In this document: piece after piece, positions 19,790 to 22,583 of the stretch
How positions within the stretch are numbered: position 1 is the first letter of the stretch
Layout of the letters: each line of letters begins with the position of its first letter
Assembly (NCBI GenBank): GCA_028343215.1
Contig: JAOLYB010000004.1
Span: forward strand, 1-55,242
Length of the DNA: 55,242 nucleotides
Direction of reading: 5' to 3'
Origin: Candidatus Nitrosopelagicus sp.
GTDB taxonomy: Archaea; Thermoproteota; Nitrososphaeria; Nitrososphaerales; Nitrosopumilaceae
Notes under the pieces: generated by a model
What the model was told of the DNA's origin: nothing
Database searches by the model: none
Seen by the model: the letters and a program-made list of their open reading frames with translations, nothing else
Translations under genes and position numbers: made by a program

Positions 19790-20110
19790 ATGTTGAGTGA
19801 AAAAGGTAAATACGCGTCAGCAACCGAGAACAGAAGATTTGTTTGGAAAGAAGTTGTGTGGCCACTCATCATACAAACTAACAATGCTGAATTTACTTTA
19901 GTGCAATATCAGGAAAAACGTGATGAAATATGTGTAAAATATGGAATGTCAGTAAATACATTATCAAGAGGATTAGCATCATTGATTCAAAGAGGATTAC
20001 TTTACAAAGAAAATCAATCATACTTTATTCATTATAGATTAATTCCATATATGAGATTAAAAGCGGAAGTTGATTATGGAACTGCTTTACATGAGATTAA
20101 GATCAGATAA
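19790..20110 (+). CDS. Small winged-helix protein, putative transcription regulator
   Basis: The 106-residue protein has a likely winged helix: helices around YQEKRDEICVKYGMSVNTLSRGLASLIQRGLL, then a two-strand wing (YKENQSYFIHYRLI). The recognition helix would be MSVNTLSRGLASLIQ. The longest open frame starts upstream at 19694, inside the YkgJ gene on the other strand. ATG 19790 fits the domain, with a TATA-like CTTATATT about 24 nt upstream. It could regulate the divergent YkgJ gene or itself; this is inferred from position. Confidence 0.7.
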   Translation: MLSEKGKYASATENRRFVWKEVVWPLIIQTNNAEFTLVQYQEKRDEICVKYGMSVNTLSRGLASLIQRGLLYKENQSYFIHYRLIPYMRLKAEVDYGTALHEIKIR

Positions 20111-20156
20111 TTTCTACAATAATGAATATATTCGAATATTTTGTAATTTTTTATGT

Positions 20157-20228
20157 AGCCCGGTAGTGTAGCGGCAAGCATAGGGGCCCCTGGAGCCTTT
20201 GACCTCGGTTCGAGTCCGGGCCGGGCTA
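20157..20228 (+). tRNA. trnQ: tRNA-Gln (CTG), with C at position 33
   Basis: The gene folds fully: acceptor AGCCCGG/CCGGGCT with discriminator A, D arm GTGT/GCAT, anticodon stem GGGGC/GCCTT with loop CCCTGGA, T stem CTCGG/CCGGG with loop TTCGAGT. The anticodon is CTG. The A1-U72 pair is the archaeal tRNA-Gln feature used by the GatDE amidotransferase, which supports glutamine identity. The loop carries C instead of the near-universal U33. CCA is not encoded. Confidence 0.85.
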
Positions 20229-20292: not shown

Positions 20293-20916
20293 TTATCTAG
20301 AAGCTTGTGCAACTCTTTCTAACTCATTCTTCTTTTTTACAGAAGGTGCAGCAGGATCATTGTTTGCAGCCAATATCAAATGTTCTGCAATATATTCTTC
20401 AATTGGTTTTGGATTTGAAAAGGTTGCTTCCTTAATTGCATCTGCAATGAATCTTAATGCCAAGTCAACACGACGAATTGGGGCAACATCAACTGAAACA
20501 TGGTAAACAGTTCCACCATAAACAATTCTAGTTGTATCTTCGTTTGGTGCAGAATTTTCAACTGCACGAACTAGGACCTCCACAGGATTTTGACCAGTTT
20601 TTAGATTAATAATATCAAATGCAACTTCAATAATTTTTAAGGAATGTTGTTTTTTACCACCTTGTCTTCCAGTGTTTTTTGCATATTTTTTACCAAAATG
20701 CATTAGTTTGTTTGCTAATCTCTCTACAATGTGCACATCACCTTTGTTGAATCTCTTTAGTGCCGAACGACCATAATCAATTGGATAAATTAACGGTTTT
20801 AGTGAAATTGATGAAAGAGTTTTTTCTCCAGATACATGTGTTTGTAAGCCTAGATCTTTAATCTCAATTTCAGAAGTATCCCACTTTCTAAATAGAAGTA
20901 ATTTTTTTTCAGCCAT
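20293..20916 (-). CDS. rps7: 30S ribosomal protein uS7
   Basis: The 207-residue uS7 has the archaeal form: an N-terminal extension, then the conserved KLMHFGKKYAKNTGRQGGKK helix pair, NPVEVLVRAVENSAPNEDTTR, and a C-terminal FIADAIKEA helix. It organises the 16S 3' major domain at the decoding site. It lies 4 nt after rps12 and is the final gene of the rpl30e-nusA-rps12-rps7 cluster. Confidence 0.97.
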   Translation of the reverse strand: MAEKKLLLFRKWDTSEIEIKDLGLQTHVSGEKTLSSISLKPLIYPIDYGRSALKRFNKGDVHIVERLANKLMHFGKKYAKNTGRQGGKKQHSLKIIEVAFDIINLKTGQNPVEVLVRAVENSAPNEDTTRIVYGGTVYHVSVDVAPIRRVDLALRFIADAIKEATFSNPKPIEEYIAEHLILAANNDPAAPSVKKKNELERVAQASR

Positions 20917-22450: not shown

Positions 22451-22465
22451 AATTGAATTAAAAAG

Positions 22466-22583
22466 ATGCCAGCACTGCTACTTCCCAACGGCTCTCGCAT
22501 GTCAGTAACACAGCAGCGACATTTGGTTTGACTTCCAAGTTCGGAATGGGATTGGGTCGCACCCAAACGCTATGGCCGGCTTA
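22466..22583 (-). rRNA. rrf: 5S ribosomal RNA
   Basis: The minus strand reads GCCGGCCATAGCGTTTGGGT and continues through the conserved CCCAATCCCATTCCGAAC and the loop GGAAGTCAAACC. It ends GTGCTGGC, which pairs with the 5' GCCGGC to close helix I. No 16S or 23S lies nearby; a stand-alone 5S gene is common in Thaumarchaeota. Ends are accurate to a few bases. Confidence 0.93.

Follow-up and report, generated by a model that had tools for sequence, protein, structure and literature searches.

Conserved C33 in the tRNA-Gln genes of Candidatus Nitrosopelagicus

Uridine 33 is treated as an invariant of tRNA, a nucleotide that shapes the anticodon. Its N3-H forms a bond to phosphate 36 (PMC8080527) and its 2'-OH a bond to N7 of base 35, the latter requiring that base 35 be a purine (PMC5372741). 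The closest described exception in the archaea is the tRNA-Cys(GCA) of the Sulfolobales, an elongator in which C33 is found throughout the lineage and the anticodon stem has a G27-U43 wobble (PMC7668247). The initiator tRNA-Met of metazoans and mammals is a functional cytosolic tRNA with C33 (PMC9023262, PMC8080527). In yeast, replacement of U33 of the SUP70 tRNA-Gln(CUG) by C or A, not by G, raised pseudohyphal growth, an effect that the authors ascribe to poorer decoding of CAG or poorer charging (PMC3664417). Methanopyrus kandleri provides the comparison at another near-universal U: its tRNA genes specify C8, which the dedicated deaminase CDAT8 converts to U8 (PMC3695527).

The tRNA-Gln of Candidatus Nitrosopelagicus (marine group I), small ammonia-oxidising archaea of the sea, resembles each of these systems in part. 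It shares with the Sulfolobales tRNA-Cys a lineage-wide C33 in an archaeal elongator and the G27-U43 wobble; it differs in its amino acid, in that both isoacceptors are affected, and in that C33 is tracked by pair 28-42. Like the C33 initiators it is cytosolic and, to judge by its sequence, functional; unlike them, it is an elongator that needs the A site and does not enter at the P site. It has the amino acid, the anticodon and the base change of the yeast U33C mutant, which was engineered and has a growth-form phenotype, whereas C33 in Nitrosopelagicus is natural and fixed. With M. kandleri it has in common an archaeal tRNA gene with C at a near-universal U, but at position 33, and with no genus-specific deaminase of the PF00383 family seen. 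The literature within reach, which lay mostly outside the subscription journals, yielded no mention of C33 in tRNA-Gln of Nitrosopelagicus or of ANME-1. The preliminary description of this DNA, which had placed C33 mainly in some initiators, is too narrow in this: the Sulfolobales tRNA-Cys(GCA) (PMC7668247) and the tRNA-Val(GAC) of many genomes of the present family are elongators with C33.

The gene and its conservation in the genus

The window (the whole 55,242-nucleotide stretch analysed) is contig C34 of a 1.06 Mb draft genome in 43 contigs, 74.7% complete. ARAGORN and Rfam RF00005 agree on an intact 72-nt tRNA-Gln(CTG) (Table 1), with the ARAGORN call extending one base further at the 3' end; the RF00005 score is 49.9 bits against a cut-off of 29, with no non-standard pair. 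The gene has the tRNA fold, passing RF00005, and the glutamine anticodon (CTG or TTG) expected of a functional archaeal elongator tRNA-Gln. The gene starts AGCCCGG and ends CCGGGCTA, so that the first pair is A1-U72, the feature of archaeal tRNA-Gln that the amidotransferase recognises. The anticodon stem pairs throughout, G-U wobbles making up two of its five pairs (27-43 and 28-42). A perfect 10-base palindrome, AGGGGCCCCT (window 20182-20191), spans anticodon stem and loop and could allow tRNA-tRNA pairing.

Table 1. Features of the tRNA-Gln(CTG) locus in the window, and C33 tRNA-Val(GAC) genes in other genomes
Feature	Position	Strand	Basis
tRNA-Gln(CTG); discriminator A73 within its 72 nt, 3' CCA unencoded	20157..20228	+	ARAGORN, RF00005, exact 72-mer shared by 19 of the 31 genomes of the genus
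Anticodon loop CCCTGGA (C32 C33 C34 U35 G36 G37 A38)	20188..20194	+	Sequence and Rfam alignment
C33 replacing U33	20189..20189	+	Sequence; C33 in 52 of 53 tRNA-Gln genes found in genus
Anticodon CTG	20190..20192	+	Sequence, ARAGORN
Anticodon arm GGGGC-CCCTGGA-GCCTT, wobbles G27-U43 and G28-U42	20183..20199	+	Rfam alignment, arm table
TATATT, probable archaeal TATA box, 25-30 bases 5' of the tRNA; putative promoter role	20127..20132	+	TATAT-type element near the same place in 24 CTG loci
tRNA-Val(GAC), loop TCGACAC (C33)	L209 (G001:C1:1191752-1191826), L235 (G216), L250 (G002), L252 (G031)		

Upstream, a 138-aa open reading frame ends at 20110 (a Pfam search with its last 108 residues found no match); downstream, the gene for ribosomal protein S7 (20293-20916, minus strand) converges on the tRNA, and beyond it lie S12, a KH-domain protein, an L7Ae/L30e protein and 5S rRNA. 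The 5S rRNA (22464-22583, minus strand) adjoins this cluster at the point where, among the stretches compared, the gene order shared with G216, a single-contig genome of another genus of the family, ends.

A blast-type search of 31 species genomes of the genus, followed by a pattern for C33, finds the base in 52 of 53 tRNA-Gln-like genes, and 19 of the 31 genomes, the window's own included, carry the exact 72-mer. In pairwise comparison of 24 CTG loci the tRNA itself averages 99.5% identity; the 60 bases before it average 65%, and the 60 after it 44%. The gene is, by this contrast with its flanks, under strong constraint (purifying selection), and C33 is fixed across the lineage as sampled. 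The draft state of the assembly is all that speaks for a sequencing or assembly error, or for a decaying gene; the recurrence of C33 in 52 of the 53 genes from 31 species, in a tRNA conserved against diverged flanks, effectively excludes both. The initial call of a tRNA-Gln(CTG) with C33 thus stands, as does the view that the gene is not decayed and its stems pair (two of the pairs being G-U), and the comparison with the same tRNA in relatives that was then proposed leaves no room for error. The sole exception in the genus (L061, G003:C20:8687-8758) has the loop TTCTGGA, with U33; C32 and C33 are both replaced by T there, through either reversion or an assembly fault.

Two isoacceptors and their origin

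The tRNA complement is best seen in G001, a relative within the genus that is assembled in one contig and 99% complete. All 41 of its RF00005 tRNA places were fetched, and ARAGORN, run on those stretches, called 42 genes: 39 with U33, which confirms C33 as unusual, and three with C33, of the kinds Gln and Val. Only two are tRNA-Gln genes, CTG and TTG, and both have C33; the loop of the genus' TTG isoacceptor is CCTTGGA. The earlier suggestion that the TTG isoacceptor compensates for the CTG gene therefore fails, and rescue by a U33 isoacceptor is rejected for the genus. In G001, CAA and CAG must accordingly be read by C33 tRNAs, barring RNA editing or a missed gene; since RF00005 passed over an intron-broken tRNA-Met that ARAGORN found within a fetched stretch, an intron-broken third tRNA-Gln elsewhere in the genome is a small residual risk. 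In the window's own incomplete genome (28 RF00005 matches) only the CTG gene was seen and the TTG gene was not found.

Outside the genus U33 prevails. The rest of the family is represented by 219 genomes, of which 168 fit a U33 pattern for tRNA-Gln and two a C33 pattern, with 49 fitting neither; at the level of the class, a pattern that admits both bases is matched by at least 183 of 400 genomes, and among the matches listed all those outside the genus have T33. G216 has a single tRNA-Gln among 42 ARAGORN genes, a TTG gene with U33, and a tRNA-Leu(CAG) lies about 6 kb from it, in the order and orientation found in G001. For these reasons the TTG locus appears ancestral, and the CTG locus an acquisition of Nitrosopelagicus. 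In a synteny comparison aimed at the place of the CTG locus in G216, window open reading frames from 22694 rightwards match that genome; to the left of 22694, none of those taken from window 8000-36000 matched the 39.5 kb compared. (As to other tRNAs, the G216 stretches have Gly(CCC), Pro(CGG) and Pro(GGG) genes that are absent from the G001 stretches, and G001 has the extra Gln(CTG), according to ARAGORN on L187-L235.) The probable order of events is that the single ancestral tRNA-Gln(TTG), still U33 in most of the family, gained C33, and that a second copy with the CTG anticodon arose afterwards, or else that gene conversion has since kept the copies alike. At sequence position 16 the two copies carry a common C-to-T change in six genomes (G002, G006, G008, G022, G027, G028), an indication that the copies have undergone gene conversion or that duplication occurred more than once.

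The two C33 genes of the family outside the genus are tRNA-Gln(TTG) genes in G033 (L236, G033:C3:34100-34330) and G038 (L237, G038:C37:8500-8750); their D stems contain 18 and 17 extra bases, respectively, probably a very small noncanonical intron.

C33 elsewhere and the state of pair 28-42

Searched with the C33 tRNA-Gln pattern, the genome_contigs collection yields 59 stretches. Marine group I accounts for 48 of them; the other 11 are of ANME-1 type (records labelled Methanophagales, ANME-1 or other methanogen-like archaea). Among these ANME-1-type genomes, G433 has an additional match, known from the pattern alone, that reads as a tRNA-Gln(CTG) with U33, so rescue could work there.

C33 also occurs in the family's tRNA-Val(GAC), in G001, G216 and many other genomes, mostly in the loop TCGACAC; in G001 no GAC tRNA-Val other than L209 was seen. 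Two members of the family, G178 and G237, have U33 in this tRNA, as do the genomes read from other families (CTGACAC in most), and bases 32 and 33 look exchanged between the two forms. A pattern for the gene, run on 300 genomes, matches 71 of them at 72 places, all with C33; because the pattern is narrow, and G178 and G237 read U33, no family-wide claim is made for Val(GAC). In another family of the order, ARAGORN calls a tRNA-Gly(CCC) with loop CCCCCAA, again C33 (L278, G331).

Within tRNA-Gln, C33 is almost always accompanied by a weak second pair in the anticodon stem. Of the 62 C33 rows fetched, in which one genus gene is counted twice (L056 and L060), 61 have a wobble or a mismatch at 28-42; 50 of the 59 U33 rows have a Watson-Crick pair there; ten of the weak C33 rows are C-A or C-U pairs of ANME-1 type, and the one exception is an ANME-1-type gene with A28-U42. 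The nine U33 rows with a weak pair comprise seven genes of other families with U28-G42, a single further gene with A28-C42, and the exceptional genus gene L061 with G28-U42. In the rest of the family, 39 of 40 U33 genes have a Watson-Crick 28-42. (Two of the 20 other-family loci, L313 and L314, yielded no row, and the 48 genus loci from genome_contigs were omitted as repeats.) The neighbouring G27-U43 wobble of the window gene does not discriminate in this way: 31 of the same 40 U33 genes from the rest of the family have it as well. The association with 28-42, which was noticed post hoc, represents about three origins: Nitrosopelagicus, G033 and G038 (perhaps one event) and the ANME-1-type archaea. 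It does not extend to tRNA-Val(GAC), in that the C33 arms read have Watson-Crick stems, and folding of isolated anticodon arms gave no useful separation of C33 from U33. The combination of C33 and weak 28-42 pairing in tRNA-Gln is apparently a new pattern, for which the Sulfolobales tRNA-Cys, with C33 and G27-U43, provides the precedent. We propose that the looser outer anticodon stem may offset a weaker U-turn in C33 tRNA-Gln.

Glutamine is used normally: it accounts for 3.0% of codons in the open reading frames of the window, 3.2% in those of the G001 stretches and 3.5% in one outgroup genome. CAG makes up 0.20 of glutamine codons, against 0.40 in G216, and codon usage does not readily account for the additional CTG gene. 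The G+C content is 34.8% in the window, 33.5% in the G001 stretches and 41.5% in G216; at such low G+C a lasting T-to-C change would run against the likely mutational bias. One might suppose that C33 is selected to slow or tune glutamine decoding, for regulation or accuracy, and is thus something beyond mere tolerance. Its persistence in nearly all genus genes, its recurrence in ANME-1-type archaea and two other genomes of the family, and the retention of a second Gln gene by a small genome in which CAG is rarer than in G216 would fit; the shares of glutamine codons just given, which bear little sign of selection on glutamine use, would not, and we regard the proposition as improbable.

Editing or a tolerated C33

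A second proposition, already raised in the preliminary description, is that C33 is confined to the gene. A cytidine deaminase would edit C33 to U33 in the tRNA, much as CDAT8 edits C8, and the gene might drift to C as repair in the RNA hides the change; tRNA-Val(GAC) would be a possible second substrate. C-to-U editing of archaeal tRNA has its precedent (PMC3695527), and one enzyme could explain C33 in the two kinds of tRNA, Gln and Val, of G001. The search for PF00383 members in 10 genomes, on the other hand, brought up none that is genus-specific: of four Nitrosopelagicus genomes three have one match and one (G019) has none, and of six other family genomes five have one match and one (G067) has two. 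The G001 protein is nearest to ComEB, a dCMP deaminase, and scores below the cut-off of that model. The scale is also different, three of 42 tRNAs of G001 having C33, against C8 in 30 of 34 tRNAs of M. kandleri (PMC3695527). Editing is accordingly an unlikely account of C33, about on a par with tuning.

Toleration, the remaining suggestion of that description, is the best reading, since no genus-specific PF00383 deaminase was seen. C33 is probably a fixed and functional feature of the elongator tRNA-Gln of Nitrosopelagicus, kept in the mature tRNA, with weaker decoding that is tolerated and possibly offset. The mature tRNAs would retain C33 and the anticodon would still turn at position 33, forgoing the N3-H bond to phosphate 36 that U33 provides, and the ribosome would tolerate the weaker decoding that results. 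Because tRNA-Gln has U35, the second U33 bond should be missing anyway, and C33 would cost it the first. Taken with the yeast U33C phenotype, this leads one to expect C33 to be costly but workable. Three offsets suggest themselves: the loosened outer stem with G28-U42, a modified G37, and the presence of two genes. In archaeal tRNAs for codons starting with C, G37 is mostly modified (PMC7668247), and an N1-methyl group there would block a C33-G37 pair.

A wider reading can be put forward tentatively, and is on balance rather less probable than its opposite: that U33 is dispensable for elongation in Nitrosopelagicus, CAA and CAG, together with GTT and GTC if Val(GAC) behaves alike, being read by C33 tRNAs (these four codons come to about 6.6% of codons in the G001 open reading frames sampled), and that its loss is compensated by weak 28-42 pairing, a coupling reached separately in the ANME-1-type archaea. 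The notion that a tRNA might repair within its own stem what it has lost in its loop lends itself to a direct test through the link with pair 28-42. For annotation, the caution is that C33 tRNAs should not be scored as decayed. A natural cell that lacks U33 in every tRNA of one amino acid would reveal the true requirements of the ribosome.
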